Source of the DNA: Geitlerinema sp. PCC 7407
GTDB lineage: Bacteria; Cyanobacteriota; Cyanobacteriia; PCC-7407
Length of the DNA stretch: 64,000 nucleotides
NCBI RefSeq assembly: GCF_000317045.1
Contig: NC_019703.1
Span: forward strand, 3,914,934-3,978,933
Direction: 5' to 3'
Positions 29,342-61,679 of the stretch are shown one piece after another. The notes beneath the pieces were generated by a model, which worked only from the letters and a program-made list of their open reading frames with translations, ran no database searches and was not told where the DNA came from. The position numbers were made by a program, and so were the translations under genes. Each line of letters begins with the position of its first letter. The first letter of the stretch is position 1.

Positions 29342-30109
29342 GTGTCTCTGCCTTTGATTTACAAAGGCATCGCCCTCTTCACCCCTGGTGGCGATTTGAT
29401 CTACGCCATTGATCCTGAAAAGCAGGATCGGTGGCACCTGCACCTTTGTGCAGCGCTGCAGGAAATCTTGGGCTTGCCTGAACCGCCCCATTTTTTGGTC
29501 CCCTGCTACACCGCCACCGTCGATCGCTGGCGCGATCCGGCCAGCGGACAAATTCAGACTGCCGCCGACGCCTATCCCCTGGTCTTTCGCTATCAGGCGA
29601 TTTTGAACGTCATTTTCCAGAGCGATCCGCTGCCCTGGAAAGTGGTCCGCGTCCCCGAAGAGCTCTGCAACCCGATGGTGCTGGCTTCCTACCGAGCGGC
29701 CTTTCCCCAGCTCTGGGAGTGCCACGACCTGATGATTTGTCTAGGTCGCAACGACAGCCGCGTGCTGTCGTCCTGGAGCGCGGCCCCTTCGGCGATCGCC
29801 CAGCCTTCCCTCAAGGCCGACGAAGCCGAGGGCTACGTGCTGCGGCTGTTTGTCTCCGGCCACGGCGCCAACACAGCGCGCACCCTGCAAAACCTCCACG
29901 AGCTCCTCGAAAAGGCCCTGCCCTATCCCTACACCCTCAAGGTCGTGGACGTCTTCAAGAACCCTGAGCAGGCCGAAGAGGACCAGATTTCGGCGACGCC
30001 GACCCTTTTGCGGGTGTGGCCCCAGCCGGTGCGGCGTCTGGTGGGCGACCTCGACAATCCCGAGCGGATTTTGCAGTTTCTGAACTTTCCCAATCAGTCC
30101 ATCTTGTAA
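29342..30109 (+). CDS. KaiB-like domain protein with N-terminal domain of unknown function
   Basis: A 255-residue protein. Residues 165-250 match KaiB strongly: YVLRLFVSGHGANTARTL, LKVVDVFKNPEQAEEDQISATPTL and RRLVGDL. The first 140 residues (LFTPGGDLIYAIDP, RWHLHLCAALQEILGLPEPPHFLVPCYTATVDRW) form a separate domain that I recognise only as recurring in cyanobacterial KaiB-family proteins. Against the KaiB of this window, the positions matching Gly89 and Asp91, which govern KaiB fold switching, are Phe246 and Asn248. A permanently thioredoxin-like fold, as in the SasA sensor domain, is therefore possible. The start is GTG. It may link the clock to an unknown output. Confidence 0.85.
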   Translation: MSLPLIYKGIALFTPGGDLIYAIDPEKQDRWHLHLCAALQEILGLPEPPHFLVPCYTATVDRWRDPASGQIQTAADAYPLVFRYQAILNVIFQSDPLPWKVVRVPEELCNPMVLASYRAAFPQLWECHDLMICLGRNDSRVLSSWSAAPSAIAQPSLKADEAEGYVLRLFVSGHGANTARTLQNLHELLEKALPYPYTLKVVDVFKNPEQAEEDQISATPTLLRVWPQPVRRLVGDLDNPERILQFLNFPNQSIL

Positions 30110-55065: not shown

Positions 55066-58000
55066 TCACAGGCGCTCTGGCGGAATTCTGGCTTCCGCCA
55101 GAGCCTGATGAATGTGATCCAGCAGTTCTCCCATCGACAGCGTGGGCGACAGAACTTCGCGGGCGATCCGGGCCAGCCGCTGCTCAAATTCGCTCTGGGG
55201 CTGGGGAGTGACCAGCGTGCCCTGGAGCCGGCGATCGAGCACCACCAACGGCGGGCGCTGGGGGAGTGCCTCTAGGGCCGCCAGGGTCTGGAGCATGGCG
55301 GGCTCAGACTCGCAGTCCCACAAAGACACCAGCAGCAGATCGACGCTGTGGTGCTGAATTTGATGCTGGACATCTTTCCAGGACTGTCCCACAACGCCGT
55401 GGAAGCCCGCCGTTTGCAGGTACTGCATGAGCATGGTCAGCCAGCCGCCCCAGCGATCGCGGCGATCGCCCTCGATCGCGGGCGACAAATCCGCAAAGGC
55501 CAAGCTGCTCAGCAGCATGATGCGAGGCCGCCAGTTCATGCCCGCCGCAATCTGGATCGCCTGAAAGAGCGAGGCCACTTCCAGCTTTTCGACAGCCTGA
55601 TTGGGGGGAGCCTGCCCCGGCAGCAGGCACGGATACACCGCCAAATTCGGCATCTGACTGAGGATGTGGGTGGTTTCGGCGTCGAGAGTGACAAAAGGCA
55701 AACCCGCCAAGACCGTATAGTCCGGAATCAGCTTTAGCAAGGCCTCCGGCGCCTGAGTTTGGCAGTCAATGAGCACCACGTGGGGCTGCCAGACCCGCGC
55801 CACAAGCTCAGCCTGGTCGAGATCGTCCGCCTCTAGCAATCGGTAGTGATACAGATGGAGCAGCTGATTGAGGTCTTCGGCGATCGCCGACTCGTAGTGA
55901 CTCTCTGGCGGTCCGCTGGGGGCCTTGAGCAGGCTGTCTTCTCGCAGGCAGAGCCGCAGGATCACCAAGTTGGTCCCAGGCTCTGAGAGCGGCGGCTCGG
56001 CGGTCTGGGTACGCAGCAGCAGCGTTTCTAGGGCGCCCACCTCGGCGGGCAGCGTCAAAAAGCCATCCGCTCGGCTGCGGCGAGCCTGATCTCGCTCGAC
56101 CGGCGCGGCCATCACGATGACGGGAATATGCTGCGTGTCGGCGTCGCTCTTGAGCAGCGTCAGCACGTCCCAGCCCGACAGCATCGGCAGCACCGGATTG
56201 AGCAGGACCGCACAGGGCTGAAGCCGCCGCACTTTTTCGACGGCTTCGGTCCCCGCCCGGGCGATCGCCACGCAGTAGCCCAAGTTCAGCAGCTGACTGC
56301 GCAAGCCTTCGATCGCCGCAGGCACCGCCTCTACGAGCAGCACCAGGCGATTGGGGAGGGTCGGCAACACCATTGTCGGTCGCACCAGCCCCTCGGGAGC
56401 TGGCTTGGGCGGACTCGGCGGCAGCAGCAGCGTAAACTCGCTGCCCTCCCCTTCGCGGGACACAAAGGTAATGTCGCCGCCGTGCAGCCTCGCCAAGCGC
56501 TGGGTCAGCACCAGCCCCAAACCAATTCCCTCGAAGCGGCGCGTCAAGGGGTTTTCGAGCTGCTGGAATTTTTGAAAAATCAGGTGCTGCTTATTAGCGG
56601 GAATGCCAATGCCTTGGTCCCACACGGTGAAGGCCACCCAGCCTTCCCAGCGGCTCACGCTAAGGCCGATTTGGCCCTGAGGATCGGTGAACTTGAAGGC
56701 ATTGGAGAGCAGGTTGAGCAGCATCTGGCGCAGCCGCATCTCGTCAGCCACCAAAAACTCTAGCCCCGGCTCGATACTCAGGGAAAAGGTGGCCAAAGCC
56801 GGCGGGGTCAAAGCAGGGGTGGACGCTTTTTCGGTCGCGCGATCGCCCGTGCCCTGGGGCGGACTGGCCGAGCATAGCTGTAGCGCTTGCTGATAGGCAC
56901 GCTCGCACACCGTGGCGATCGCCACAGGCTCCGGCTGGAGCTCCAGCTGGCCCGTCTCGATCCGCGTCAAGTCCAGAATATCGTTCACGATATTCATCAG
57001 ATGGCGGCCGCTCTGATAGATCAGCTGCGTGTAGTGAACCTGGCGCGCATTGAGATTGCCCAGGGTCTGCTCCTTGAGCAGGCCCGACAGGCCCAGCACC
57101 GCCGTCAGCGGCGTCCGCAGTTCATGGCTAATGCAGGCCAAAAACTCATCTTTGAGGCGATTGAGCTGAGCCAGGTCTGCATTTTTGGCAATCAGCTCCT
57201 GGGTAACCTGCTGATGCTCCGTCAAATCCTGGGCCACCACCAGCCACAAGGGCGATCGCCAGGCTAGGGGCGACCGAGTCTGAGCGTCTCGGGCCAGCGT
57301 CGCCACCGACGTCAATCCCTGGGCCAGCGCCTCCCAAGACCACAGCGGATCTTGGGCCAAACCTGCAATCCCATCGATCTGAGTAGGATCCGTGAGCTGC
57401 GAGGGGCGATCGCCCAGCATGGGCAGCAGATCTGGCGGAATCGACAGCGCAATGCGCGTAAACTGCCACGATCGCGCCTTCGGCGTCCCCGCCCCGCTCC
57501 CAGAGCCGTGCACCTGAGGGCCATAGCTCACCCCCAAGCGGCAATGGCCCACCGACTCCCACGGCGATCGCATCTCCTCTTCGAGGCAGCGCACCGGACC
57601 AATCGTCGATCGCCACGCGCAGTTTTGCAGCAGCACCGTCCCCGTTTGCTCCTGGAGCATCAGAGGCATCGGCAGCGCCTCCAGCAGTTCCTCCAGCAGC
57701 ACCCAGGCAGCCGACGGCGATCGCCGCGCCCCCGCCAACAGCAAGCGATCGCGTCCAACAAAAGCCTCTCGCGTTTCCCGCGGCTCCCCCAGAGAGCTCG
57801 GCGCCCAGTGCTTCAGCAAAGCGTGGAGATCCAGCATCCCGCCATAGGTGCCATCCCCCTGGACCACCACCCAGAACTGCGACATCGCCGCCTGCAAGCG
57901 TCGACCCACATCCTCCACCAGCAAATCCGCCGAAAACACGCTCACCGGCAGCAGCTTGCCGCGATCGCGCAGCCACGGACCCACCAGCGCAGATCCCTGC

Positions 58001-58218
58001 TCTCGCAGCCCCACCCAAAGGTCCGCGCCCCCTTGGTCCACCATCATCGCCAGCACATCCGGCAGCCTCATCACCCCAAGCGGGAATCTCTGCTCATCCA
58101 GCAACACCAGGCAGTCAGACTGATCGCGCAGCATCAACTCCACAGCTGCCGAAAGCCTTTCGGTGTAGCCACAAGACGGCACAACTCTGCTAAAGTCTCG
58201 AAGGCGGAGCGCTGACAT
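55066..58218 (-). CDS. Histidine kinase with N-terminal CBS-like region and three degenerate receiver domains
   Basis: A 1050-residue protein transcribed away from kaiA. The N-terminal 140 residues look like a CBS pair (ERLSAAVELMLRDQSDCLVLLDEQRFPLGVMRLPDVLAMM; FWVVVQGDGTYGGMLDLHALL). A PAS-like stretch follows, then HisKA with the phospho-His in ISHELRTPLTAVLG (about 364) and an HATPase with NLLSNAFKF, DQGIGIP and EGIGLGLVL. Three receiver-like domains end the protein (from about 620, 750 and 905). The first has Asn in LLNPVLPM where the phospho-Asp should be, and the others are also degenerate, as in clock pseudo-receivers. The ATG at 58218 is preferred; a GTG at 58266 is possible. Location suggests a clock link. 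Confidence 0.85.
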   Translation of the reverse strand: MSALRLRDFSRVVPSCGYTERLSAAVELMLRDQSDCLVLLDEQRFPLGVMRLPDVLAMMVDQGGADLWVGLREQGSALVGPWLRDRGKLLPVSVFSADLLVEDVGRRLQAAMSQFWVVVQGDGTYGGMLDLHALLKHWAPSSLGEPRETREAFVGRDRLLLAGARRSPSAAWVLLEELLEALPMPLMLQEQTGTVLLQNCAWRSTIGPVRCLEEEMRSPWESVGHCRLGVSYGPQVHGSGSGAGTPKARSWQFTRIALSIPPDLLPMLGDRPSQLTDPTQIDGIAGLAQDPLWSWEALAQGLTSVATLARDAQTRSPLAWRSPLWLVVAQDLTEHQQVTQELIAKNADLAQLNRLKDEFLACISHELRTPLTAVLGLSGLLKEQTLGNLNARQVHYTQLIYQSGRHLMNIVNDILDLTRIETGQLELQPEPVAIATVCERAYQQALQLCSASPPQGTGDRATEKASTPALTPPALATFSLSIEPGLEFLVADEMRLRQMLLNLLSNAFKFTDPQGQIGLSVSRWEGWVAFTVWDQGIGIPANKQHLIFQKFQQLENPLTRRFEGIGLGLVLTQRLARLHGGDITFVSREGEGSEFTLLLPPSPPKPAPEGLVRPTMVLPTLPNRLVLLVEAVPAAIEGLRSQLLNLGYCVAIARAGTEAVEKVRRLQPCAVLLNPVLPMLSGWDVLTLLKSDADTQHIPVIVMAAPVERDQARRSRADGFLTLPAEVGALETLLLRTQTAEPPLSEPGTNLVILRLCLREDSLLKAPSGPPESHYESAIAEDLNQLLHLYHYRLLEADDLDQAELVARVWQPHVVLIDCQTQAPEALLKLIPDYTVLAGLPFVTLDAETTHILSQMPNLAVYPCLLPGQAPPNQAVEKLEVASLFQAIQIAAGMNWRPRIMLLSSLAFADLSPAIEGDRRDRWGGWLTMLMQYLQTAGFHGVVGQSWKDVQHQIQHHSVDLLLVSLWDCESEPAMLQTLAALEALPQRPPLVVLDRRLQGTLVTPQPQSEFEQRLARIAREVLSPTLSMGELLDHIHQALAEARIPPERL

Positions 58219-58725
58219 CAACGAAGCAACCCCTAACGGAAGAGCAAATCCACCAGTCTCAGTCACATCTCAAGGCGATCGCGCAACCAAAAGCCTCACC
58301 ATTACCCCAGTGAAAGCACCAGCAGCCCTCAGTCCCCTGAGCCTGCATCCTTGCCCAAATCACCTACGCCCCAACGCTCCGGGACAGCACACTACCCAAA
58401 ACTCTAAAATCGTCGCGCGACCATCACAGCCTCATTATTACCCCGACCGCAATATCCAAGGCTTCCTACAACAAATTTATTGATATTTGTCGCCTAACAC
58501 CAAATTTCTCATCTTTAATTCAAAGCAGCTTCTGTCCCATCGGATTGATCTTGAGAAACCTCCAGAGACCTCAGTATTCCCAACTCTTCTCTCGATCCCC
58601 AAAATCCGCAGAAAAACCTAAAAAAATTATTAAAATTCCGCATCAAAACTAGTGCTTGATTCAAGTCACTAGCCCATAATCATGACTAGGAATGTGATTT
58701 TTGTCCCCCTCACCTCACCCCAGCC
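58219..58725. promoter_or_regulatory. Divergent kaiA / histidine kinase promoter region
   Basis: This 507 bp spacer is AT-rich from about 58430 to 58690, unlike the GC-rich kinase gene beside it. It must carry the kaiA promoter and that of the kinase. No gene is seen. A HIP1 octamer lies at 58275-58282 and none occurs again until 61264. Confidence 0.5.
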
Positions 58726-59622
58726 TTGAGTTCTCCCCTCGCAATTTGCACCTTTTTGCCCTCACCCGCCCTAGCCCAGGTTGTCCAAAACCATCTGAGC
58801 AGAGACTCCCATACCCCCAGCATTCATCACACTCCAGACGATCTTCGAGACTTCATCCTGCTCGAAAAGCAGCAAATTGATTGCTTAGTGCTCGAAGATC
58901 GTCCAGAAATTCGCTCCCTGTACGGATGGCTCTACGAAAATGCCATTGTCCTTCCCTGCGTCATCTTCATCACCAAAAACTCCACCAAGAAAGAAAGTCA
59001 CCCCGACGAACCCATCGACTTCCCTTTTCCTCTGACCTCCCTGCCGACCTATCTCTACCACGCCGCCGAGATTCGCATCGGCCTTGACAAGGGCGACCAG
59101 ATCCTCCACTACATCGACCAAGCGATCGGCCAGTTTCTCAAGCTCTCTCCCACCTACCAGGCGTCCGACCTCAACTCCCACGAGCCCACCAACAGCGCAG
59201 TGGCTCCTGTCTTTCTGTCCACCCAGCATCGACTCGCCGAAAAACTCAAAGAGCGATTGGGATATCTCGGTGTGTACTACAAGCGAGACTCGCGATACTT
59301 CCTTCGCCATCTCTCCCTGCAGGAAAAACAAGAACTGCTCGACAAGCTGCGGTTTACCTACCGGGAGATCATCTTGGGCTACTTCTCTCAAGATGACCAA
59401 CTCAATCAAAAAATTGACGAATTCGTAAACCTCGCCTTCTTTTCAGATATTCCTGTTACACAAATCGTCGAAATCCACATGGATCTCATGGACGAATTTT
59501 CTAAGCAGCTAAAATTGGAGGGGCGCAGCGAGGACATCCTACTTGACTATCGCTTGACCCTGATTGATACAATTGCTCACCTGTGCGAGATGTACCGTCG
59601 CTCCATTCCCCGGGAGTCCTAA
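58726..59622 (+). CDS. kaiA: Circadian clock protein KaiA
   Basis: A 298-residue clock protein that stimulates KaiC autophosphorylation by binding its C-terminal tail. Residues 1-130 are the pseudo-receiver domain ([19 protein letters not shown]...[32 protein letters not shown]). The C-terminal dimerisation and KaiC-binding domain is highly conserved: [49 protein letters not shown] and [32 protein letters not shown]. The start is an unusual TTG that aligns with the known KaiA N-terminus; no strong ribosome site is seen. kaiB follows after 73 bp. Confidence 0.95.
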
Positions 59623-59695
59623 AAAACTTCGATATATAACCATCAGACATTTCTTTCATATTGTCCCCTTATGTGAACTCTCTTCTTTAACTCCT

Positions 59696-60010
59696 ATGGG
59701 CTCTCTCAAAAAAACCTATGTTCTGAAACTTTATGTAGCGGGCAATACTCCCAACTCGGTTCGCGCCCTAAAAACCCTCAAGAATATCTTGGAAGAAGAA
59801 TTTCAGGGAGTGTACGCACTGAAAGTGATCGACGTGCTAAAAAATCCCCAGCTCGCCGAAGAAGATAAGATACTTGCGACGCCAACCTTGGCCAAAATTC
59901 TGCCGCCGCCTGTTCGCAAGATCATTGGCGACCTCTCGGATCGAGATAGGGTTTTGATTGGCCTCGATTTACTTTATGAAGAACTACAGGAAGATGAAGC
60001 GGATATCTAA
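59696..60010 (+). CDS. kaiB: Circadian clock protein KaiB
   Basis: A 104-residue clock protein that binds phosphorylated KaiC and sequesters KaiA after switching fold. [79 protein letters not shown] is almost the textbook sequence. Gly89 and Asp91, the residues known to control fold switching, are both present. The acidic C-terminus [10 protein letters not shown] is normal. The frame is open upstream, but the ATG at 59696 matches the family. kaiC lies 109 bp downstream and is probably cotranscribed. Confidence 0.98.
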
Positions 60011-60119: not shown

Positions 60120-61679
60120 ATGAGCGACAGCAATCAGCCGGAGCAACAGAAGGAACCCGTTCGCGTTGGTGTTCAAAAAATTCGTACTCTTATCGAAGGC
60201 TTTGACGACATCAGCCATGGCGGCCTGCCAATCGGACGGACAAGCCTTGTCAGCGGGACTTCCGGCACAGGAAAAACTCTGTTTGCAGTGCAGTTTCTCT
60301 ACAACGGGATCGTGCACTTTGATGAGCCGGGTGTGTTCGTCACCTTTGAAGAATCACCCAGCGATATCATCAAAAACGCCCAGAGTTTTGGCTGGGATTT
60401 GCAGCGCTTAGTCAATGATGGCAAGCTGTTCATTCTGGATGCTTCCCCCGATCCTGAGGGTCAGGATGTGGTGGGCAATTTTGATTTGTCGGCGCTGATT
60501 GAACGCATTCAATATGCGATTCGAAAATACAAAGCAAAACGCGTTTCGATTGACTCGATTACGGCGGTTTTTCAGCAGTATGATGCTGCCTCGGTGGTGC
60601 GCCGAGAAATTTTCCGGCTGGTGGCTCGTCTGAAGCAGATTGGCGCAACTACGGTGATGACAACCGAGCGGATCGAGGAATACGGTCCGGTGGCTCGGTT
60701 TGGGGTGGAAGAGTTTGTCTCGGACAATGTGGTGATCGTGCGCAACGTGCTGGAGGGCGAGCGGCGGCGGCGAACGCTGGAGATCCTCAAGCTGCGCGGC
60801 ACCACCCACATGAAGGGTGAGTTTCCCTTCACGATTACCAATGAGGGAATCAATATCTTCCCGCTGGGGGCGATGCGCCTGACGCAGCGATCGTCGAATG
60901 TCCGCGTCTCGTCGGGCGTGAAGACGATGGACGAGATGTGCGGCGGCGGCTTCTTCAAAGATTCGATTATTTTGGCGACGGGGGCAACGGGTACAGGCAA
61001 GACGCTGCTGGTCAGCAAGTTCTTGGAAAATGCCTGTATCAACGGCGAGAAGGCAATGCTGTTTGCCTATGAGGAGTCACGGGCGCAGCTGTTCCGCAAT
61101 GCCTATTCGTGGGGCATTGATTTTGAGGAGATGGAGCGCAAGGGCCTGCTGAGAATCCTGTGTGCCTATCCGGAGTCAACGGGCCTCGAAGATCACTTGC
61201 AGATCATTAAGACGGAGATTGCCGAGTTTAAGCCGTCGCGGATTGCGATCGACTCGCTGTCGGCGATCGCCCGCGGCGTGAGCAACAACAGCTTCCGGCA
61301 GTTCGTGATCGGGGTGACGGGCTTCGCCAAGCAGGAGGAGATCACGGGCTTCTTCACCAACACGACGGACCAGTTTATGGGGTCCCACTCAATCACGGAC
61401 TCCCATATTTCGACGATCACAGACACGATCTTGATGCTCCAGTACGTGGAGATTCGCGGCGAGATGTCTCGGGCGATCAACGTATTCAAGATGCGCGGAT
61501 CCTGGCACGACAAGGGCATTCGCGAGTACACGATCAGCGAGAAGGGCCCCGAAATCAAGGATTCCTTCCGCAATTTCGAGCGGATTATCAGCGGTTCTCC
61601 CACTCGGGTGTCCGTGGACGAAAAGATGGAGCTCTCACGCATCGTCAAGAACGTCCAGGGCCGCTCCGACGAAGGCTAG
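60120..61679 (+). CDS. kaiC: Circadian clock ATPase/kinase KaiC
   Basis: A 519-residue double-domain RecA-like protein, the core of the circadian oscillator. CI has Walker A GTSGTGKT (46-53) and the catalytic Glu77-Glu78 pair in FVTFEESP. CII has Walker A GATGTGKT (288-295) and Glu318-Glu319. The phosphorylation sites Ser431 and Thr432 lie in DSHISTITDT, with the same numbering as in Synechococcus. The C-terminal A-loop and tail that KaiA grips are present (DEKMELSRIVKNVQGRSDEG). The ATG at 60120 has AGGA 3 nt upstream. All residues needed for a working clock are intact. Confidence 0.99.
   Translation: MSDSNQPEQQKEPVRVGVQKIRTLIEGFDDISHGGLPIGRTSLVSGTSGTGKTLFAVQFLYNGIVHFDEPGVFVTFEESPSDIIKNAQSFGWDLQRLVNDGKLFILDASPDPEGQDVVGNFDLSALIERIQYAIRKYKAKRVSIDSITAVFQQYDAASVVRREIFRLVARLKQIGATTVMTTERIEEYGPVARFGVEEFVSDNVVIVRNVLEGERRRRTLEILKLRGTTHMKGEFPFTITNEGINIFPLGAMRLTQRSSNVRVSSGVKTMDEMCGGGFFKDSIILATGATGTGKTLLVSKFLENACINGEKAMLFAYEESRAQLFRNAYSWGIDFEEMERKGLLRILCAYPESTGLEDHLQIIKTEIAEFKPSRIAIDSLSAIARGVSNNSFRQFVIGVTGFAKQEEITGFFTNTTDQFMGSHSITDSHISTITDTILMLQYVEIRGEMSRAINVFKMRGSWHDKGIREYTISEKGPEIKDSFRNFERIISGSPTRVSVDEKMELSRIVKNVQGRSDEG

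Follow-up and report, generated by a model that had tools for sequence, protein, structure and literature searches.

The gene at 55066–58218 (minus strand) of the window, a stretch of 64,000 nucleotides from the genome of Geitlerinema sp. PCC 7407 (contig NC_019703.1), encodes a hybrid histidine kinase of 1050 residues that lies head-to-head with the clock genes kaiABC, 507 bp from kaiA. The kinase belongs to an ancient, usually single-copy, cyanobacterial family. Judging from what is directly observed of this family, namely its architecture, orthology, linkage, co-occurrence with KaiA, residue conservation and, in some lineages, loss of ATPase residues, we consider it probable that the kinase serves the KaiABC clock.

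Pairing of the kinase gene with kaiA

We compared 80 kaiA loci, taken from the top KaiA scores of the 343 KaiA-positive genomes among 388 of the class and reduced manually according to genus. In 59 of them the upstream neighbour of kaiA belongs to a single cluster of homologues, and in all 59 it is on the opposite strand. The flanking slots are unconserved: the largest cluster holds 3 of 78 genes in the next slot out and 5 of 76 in the slot after kaiC. Background synteny was therefore rejected as the cause of the pairing. The same arrangement appears when the kinase alone is used as the starting point. When a collection of 84,980 species was scanned with the alignment of the kinase, 405 relatives came up, and among the best 80 of these 405, all cyanobacterial, 78 have kaiA beside the kinase; one of the remaining two has kaiC with kaiA undetected, and the other is at a contig edge.

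A further 33 KaiA-positive genomes were hand-picked to cover families so far unsampled. A strong orthologue is present in 19 of these, adjacent to kaiA and divergent in 13, elsewhere in 5 and at a contig end in one; the other 14 are without an intact orthologue. The original prediction, made from the letters of the window, had made a clock link depend on adjacency to kaiA beyond this one genome. An adjacency peculiar to Geitlerinema sp. PCC 7407 is rejected by the 59 of 80 kaiA loci and the 78 of the best 80 kinase loci, and with the 13 of 19 as well the clock link is supported. Near the five non-adjacent copies (L180–L184), neither a kai gene nor another obvious partner was seen by eye. One of the 14 genomes without an intact orthologue (G353) carries a stop-ridden kinase remnant beside kaiA (L185, 6352–6591), which suggests loss in place. 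In certain Nostocales loci (e.g., L107, L117, L154), the KaiA match is limited to the C-terminal part of the protein and the kinase still adjoins it, so the pairing is independent of the KaiA pseudo-receiver.

Distribution was surveyed in the 388 class genomes with a tandem profile of the first two pseudo-receivers of the kinase (REC1 and REC2, described below) at E ≤ 1e-20. The profile matches 230 genomes, nearly always in one copy. Seven of the 230 have no KaiA match, and all seven are less than 90% complete. Among the 334 good-quality genomes, the kinase is matched in 202 and KaiA in 298, and the kinase occurs in none of the 36 that lack KaiA (Fisher 1e-16, a figure inflated by kinship). 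Some matches near 1e-20 are single receivers and not orthologues, for example those in G011 and G030. These two genomes, which have no kinase orthologue, were taken as Synechococcus elongatus-like on the strength of a CikA of 760–763 residues whose receiver is without Asp.

Gene model and domain architecture

The reading frame of the kinase is open throughout. Its ATG start agrees with the N-terminus of the kinase family; an alternative GTG start is possible at 58266. From the N- to the C-terminus, the protein consists of a CBS pair, a PAS-like domain, the DHp and ATPase domains of the kinase core and three receiver folds. The original prediction had listed all of these correctly save the PAS-like domain, which it missed. 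The features of the locus are as follows.

55066–58218, minus strand: kaiA-divergent hybrid histidine kinase, 1050 residues (open frame; single orthologous group, 100/99, in the kinase tree)
57799–58218, minus strand: CBS pair, residues 1–140 (AlphaFold; Foldseek 3sl7, E 1.0e-6; VIA 4noc, Z 14.1; Pfam CBS in 33 of 46 family members at E ≤ 0.1)
57214–57720, minus strand: PAS-like domain, residues about 167–335 (PAS_4 and PAS_8 in family members; Cys columns; three-Cys motif lost here)
56944–57186, minus strand: DHp (HisKA), residues 345–425 (Pfam 1.1e-18)
57124–57126, minus strand: codon of the phospho-acceptor His365 (invariant, 131 of 131)
56413–56766, minus strand: ATP-binding domain, residues 485–602 (Pfam 4.5e-27)
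56005–56352, minus strand: pseudo-receiver 1 (REC1), residues 623–738, Asn674 in place of Asp, no Lys (Pfam 1.5e-11; AlphaFold; VIA Z about 21; alignment columns)
55540–55971, minus strand: pseudo-receiver 2 (REC2), residues 750–893, Asp818 kept, no acidic pair or Lys, conserved helix α2 and FPCL (AlphaFold; conservation)
55090–55533, minus strand: pseudo-receiver 3 (REC3), residues 896–1043, present in 112 of 131 (AlphaFold; alignment)
58219–58725, no strand: divergent intergenic region between kinase and kaiA (gene coordinates)
58726–59622, plus strand: kaiA (Pfam KaiA 2.9e-63, KaiA_N 2.1e-36)
59696–60010, plus strand: kaiB, start inferred inside the open reading frame 59564–60010 (Pfam KaiB 4.3e-30)
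60120–61679, plus strand: kaiC (Pfam KaiC 2.5e-124)

Residue counts are from a combined alignment of 131 rows, made of 57 rows that include the window protein and 74 of the best 80 kinase loci; L115, L136, L145, L162, L170 and L171, which yielded no frame passing the filter, are absent from it, as L047 and L050 (both split frames) and L099 are from the 57-row alignment. AlphaFold models were built from family alignments. Mean conservation falls from the DHp (0.62) and ATPase (0.59) domains through REC1 (0.48) and REC2 (0.42) to the CBS pair (0.33) and the PAS-like domain (0.29).

The kinase core and its decay in some lineages

The kinase core was described at the outset as intact, and it is: Pfam places HisKA at residues 356–423 and HATPase_c at 492–601, and the window protein has H365, N506, D534, G536 and G538, which makes it a hybrid histidine kinase of the HisKA type. 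His365 is followed by Glu366 in 128 of the 131 orthologues. Ten orthologues (L036, L038, L045, L046, L049, L060, L063, L064, L077 and L078) do not keep all of N506, D534, G536 and G538; these rows have T, N or S at position +4 of the H-E-x-x-T motif. When three of the degenerate proteins were scanned singly, L045 and L078 gave HisKA without HATPase_c (E ≤ 0.01), and L036 gave HATPase_c at 2.6e-7. All ten retain REC1, REC2, the DHp histidine and the place beside kaiA.

Identity to the window protein, compared between intact and degenerate orthologues, is 0.77 versus 0.42 in the DHp domain, 0.77 versus 0.37 in the ATPase domain, 0.59 versus 0.25 in REC1 and 0.41 versus 0.34 in REC2. Since REC2 and the histidine survive decay of the ATPase, they appear to be the parts that must stay. 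A role as phosphatase or in docking would fit this pattern better than that of an obligate kinase.

The CBS pair and the PAS-like domain

The CBS-like pair of the original prediction is borne out by structure. Pfam finds CBS in the window protein at E 0.22, below the cut-off, and its matches among family N-termini reach 2.8e-7. Residues 1–140 are modelled as a CBS-pair fold, which Foldseek matches to CBS-pair structures at E of about 1e-6. The canonical CBS ligand motif is S/T-x-x-D. In the 131-row alignment, this motif is absent from both repeats across the family. Counting from G127, D stands at +3 in 106 of 131 rows and R at +6 in 79; counting from G48, the +3 place is taken mainly by Y, S or H, and R stands at +6 in 65. 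The suggestion that the CBS pair couples the kinase to energy state by sensing adenine nucleotides thus finds no support in these motifs and is very unlikely.

Between the CBS pair and the kinase core, Pfam matches PAS_8 in 6 and PAS_4 in 4 of the 46 members, at best with E 4.5e-4. The PAS assignment rests on these weak matches and on the predicted fold, because the VIA rows of the N-terminal model cover only the CBS pair. The domain carries a three-Cys motif, C-x8-C-x-C, that is complete in 99 of the 123 rows having the domain; 15 rows have none of the three residues and 9 have one or two. A fourth Cys, two residues further on, is present in 52 of the 131 orthologues. As the three cysteines are nearly all-or-none, it is tempting to suggest that they form a joint site, for example a metal or iron–sulfur (Fe-S) centre. 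Of the three, the window protein retains just C226, the first, and has Q235 and H237 at the other two places; therefore, a three-Cys site cannot be the present signal of this particular protein. Outside the PAS-like domain, cysteines C16, C362, C438 and C864 are conserved in 98–123 of the 131 orthologues.

The pseudo-receivers

Residues 603–1050 are modelled as three consecutive complete (βα)5 folds (mean pLDDT 82.9). Pfam makes one receiver match in the window protein, at residues 626–726, and REC2 and REC3 go undetected by it; likewise, the VIA rows of the C-terminal model covered REC1 only. Asn for the phospho-acceptor Asp in the first receiver, read from the window, is a family trait: the site of Asn674 is N in 116 of 131 rows and D in 2, and Leu-Pro stands at the place of the Lys. 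REC2 retains Asp at the β3 position (Asp818, D in 109 of 131), lacks the acidic pair of β1 and has F-P-C-L at the Lys site. In REC3, the β3 site is mostly Cys. The original description of three degenerate receivers stands insofar as each is without the full phospho-acceptor set, and has to be qualified for REC2, which keeps its β3 Asp. With a receiver fold and an incomplete phospho-acceptor set, all three are to be classed, on their residues and predicted folds, as pseudo-receivers.

Despite their degenerate sites, REC1 and REC2 are well conserved, though unevenly so. Helix α2 reaches 0.60 in REC1, tied with α3, and 0.67 in REC2, where it is the highest; the remaining helices of REC1 (α1, α4 and α5) lie at 0.32–0.39 and those of REC2 at 0.26–0.48. 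By hhalign, REC1 fits the profile of the CikA receiver at 98%. The idea that REC1 is specially close, among receivers in the Protein Data Bank (PDB), to 2j48, which we take to be the structure of the CikA pseudo-receiver, was rejected, as the match (E 1.1e-6) is weaker than that of many ordinary receivers.

Relation to CikA, SasA and other systems

The window kinase had been said to have neither the SasA nor the CikA architecture, and both proteins are indeed encoded by separate genes of this genome. SasA is a protein of 411 residues (L192) that scores 545.6 bits, against a cut-off of 342, with NF006800, presumably the SasA model (E 5.8e-164). The CikA-type kinase has 764 residues (L198, C1:2929400–2933400); its receiver matches 2j48 at E 2e-14, and its N-terminal half finds the 760–763-residue proteins of S. 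elongatus-like genomes. The L198 receiver keeps Asp and Lys, and the CikA proteins of S. elongatus-like genomes (L202, L203) are without the Asp; the CikA receiver may, then, be a true receiver in some lineages.

The kinase-core tree has 92 rows, 72 of them from the family (72 of the 131, window protein included). These 72 all fall into a single group, 100/99, distinct from CikA, SasA and the other kinases of this genome; CikA forms its own separate group, likewise 100/99. Orthology to CikA or SasA was rejected on these grounds. Pfam found no GAF domain in the window protein or the family members scanned, and no N-terminal KaiB-like domain is present in the kinase, none of the seven PF07689 places of the genome falling inside its gene. 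The best NCBIfam match, HrmK (NF038297), scores 267 bits against a curated 725 and is below the cut-off.

Like CikA of Synechococcus elongatus, the kinase is clock-associated and has a CikA-like core followed by a pseudo-receiver, REC1 being related to that of CikA. Unlike CikA, it carries a CBS pair and a PAS-like domain in place of GAF, has up to three pseudo-receivers and pairs with kaiA. With SasA it shares a tie to KaiABC and the expectation of acting on a separate response regulator, but it has a different DHp as well as no KaiB-like domain. The N-terminal pseudo-receiver of KaiA, encoded at the same locus, is also a receiver fold without phospho-acceptor chemistry, but profile similarity to it is weak (REC1 73%, REC2 0.5%, REC3 65%).

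Two further systems may be likened to it. The kaiBC operon of Rhodobacter sphaeroides encodes a histidine kinase, proposed to carry a redox signal (PMC5520375). That kinase too is encoded with kai genes, but in a purple bacterium and in an operon with kaiBC, and the likeness is one of genetic setting and proposed function. In ShkA of Caulobacter, a pseudo-receiver restrains the kinase core of its own hybrid kinase (PMC12632262), an arrangement that the present kinase may resemble; ShkA, however, possesses a true receiver, has c-di-GMP as its ligand and is not linked to a clock.

Proposed role and alternatives

We propose, as the best supported of the readings compared, that the kinase is a clock-linked kinase/phosphatase which resembles CikA in its working but is a different protein; this reading is plausible as a whole but falls short of probable. 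The CBS pair and the PAS-like domain would set the state of the helical core in answer to a presumed signal. The DHp histidine would act in trans, its target being a separate response regulator for which RpaA is the likeliest choice, and phosphatase activity would be the part conserved everywhere. The tandem pseudo-receivers, predicted to be unable to accept phosphate in the normal way, could well dock on a Kai protein or complex, with KaiB–KaiC as the first candidate, although we would stop short of calling such docking likely; the contact would be made by the conserved β2/α2 face of REC1–REC2. The CikA pseudo-receiver binds KaiB through its α1-β2-α2 surface and also binds quinones (PMC12632262), and CikA dephosphorylates RpaA (PMC13421787). 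A phosphatase-biased action of the present kinase on RpaA is a tentative suggestion, and rather unlikely.

Several observations weigh against this proposal. The docking argument from the β2/α2 face is indirect. REC2 and REC3 fit the CikA receiver profile worse than REC1 does, and REC2 comes near to no match at all with the KaiA pseudo-receiver profile. Most of the family, 121 of the 131 orthologues, retains the ATPase residues and so probably makes use of kinase activity as well; the degenerate rows have long branches and group together in the tree, which leaves the count of independent ATPase losses uncertain. The orthologue lies away from kaiA in 5 of the 19 hand-picked genomes that bear it. 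Finally, 14 of the 33 KaiA-positive genomes, including two that are S. elongatus-like, are without an intact orthologue, and the family is therefore dispensable for a KaiABC clock.

Because the two genes are head-to-head and share an intergenic region, the kinase and a response regulator of its own might instead control kai transcription (kaiA or kaiBC) from the shared divergent promoter region, a regulatory link with no Kai contact. In 58 intergenic regions, a few AT-rich words are enriched (TGTTAAGTAT in 8 and AATACTTAAC in 10, with shuffles giving at most 4 for any 10-mer), and the word AATTAATTAT is likewise found in 8–10 of the 58. However, the words did not resolve into a motif and their enrichment may stem from related promoters, the slots around the 80 kaiA loci hold no conserved response regulator gene, and the pseudo-receivers are left unexplained; we regard this alternative as unlikely, though not negligible. 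A quite improbable alternative makes the kinase a sensor of redox state, metals or stress that is expressed from the clock promoter region, that is, a clock-controlled gene and not a clock part. Such a role would suit the CBS–PAS sensor part, the three-Cys motif found in 99 of the 131 orthologues and the absence of the kinase from many KaiA-positive genomes, but no well-assembled genome lacking KaiA was found to have the kinase, and its place by kaiA is kept even after decay of the ATPase.

Many CBS pairs bind AMP, ADP or ATP, and the CBS-pair fold is present here, but with the S/T-x-x-D motif missing from both repeats, it is very unlikely that the kinase senses adenine nucleotides and in this way couples the clock to energy state. 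That the gene is merely a divergent CikA or SasA is hardly credible: its core is nearest the CikA-like hybrid type of this genome and REC1 matches the CikA receiver profile, yet CikA-type and SasA genes coexist with it, the family is a group of its own and neither a GAF nor a KaiB-like domain was found in it. The proposal of a CikA-like kinase/phosphatase can also be put in a bolder form, which we hold to be improbable. Here, the kaiA-paired protein would be a fourth locus-encoded clock partner in most cyanobacteria, its pseudo-receivers binding the Kai complex and a metal or Fe-S site at the three PAS cysteines feeding redox into the oscillator; S. elongatus would have lost it, and in some lineages it would have become an ATP-independent pseudokinase still using the DHp histidine.

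Significance and literature

The cyanobacterial clock is known almost wholly from S. elongatus. The kinase, whose gene is found head-to-head with kaiABC across the class and which S. elongatus apparently lacks, is a strong candidate for an input or output component that has been missed; since it is paired with the clock genes in most cyanobacteria, a part of the clock may have been overlooked. If S. elongatus did lose the kinase, the textbook clock would be a reduced version. The ATPase-decayed forms, which keep their position, would reveal what a clock really requires of a histidine kinase.

No paper on the locus tag tll0480 was found in the open-access literature. In Anabaena, all2883 is taken as the neighbour of kaiA. 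There, alr2884 is kaiA (PMC8064755), and all2883 was found in one paper, as a list entry among predicted CRP targets (PMC2633013). A survey of clock factors lists input and output proteins, and in the part at hand the kinase is not among them (PMC5520375). In the open-access literature, to which the search was limited and beyond which the print record may hold more, we found no description of a kaiA-divergent kinase, judging mostly from titles and the openings of abstracts. The domain types are known; in the literature searched, neither their combination nor its constant position next to kaiA seems to have been described.

Other KaiB-domain genes

The genome of Geitlerinema sp. PCC 7407 has six KaiB-domain places above the cut-off. 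In the window, a 255-residue open reading frame at 29342–30106 (plus strand) has a C-terminal KaiB domain (residues 168–248, E 7.2e-27), preceded by an N-terminal part without a Pfam match.

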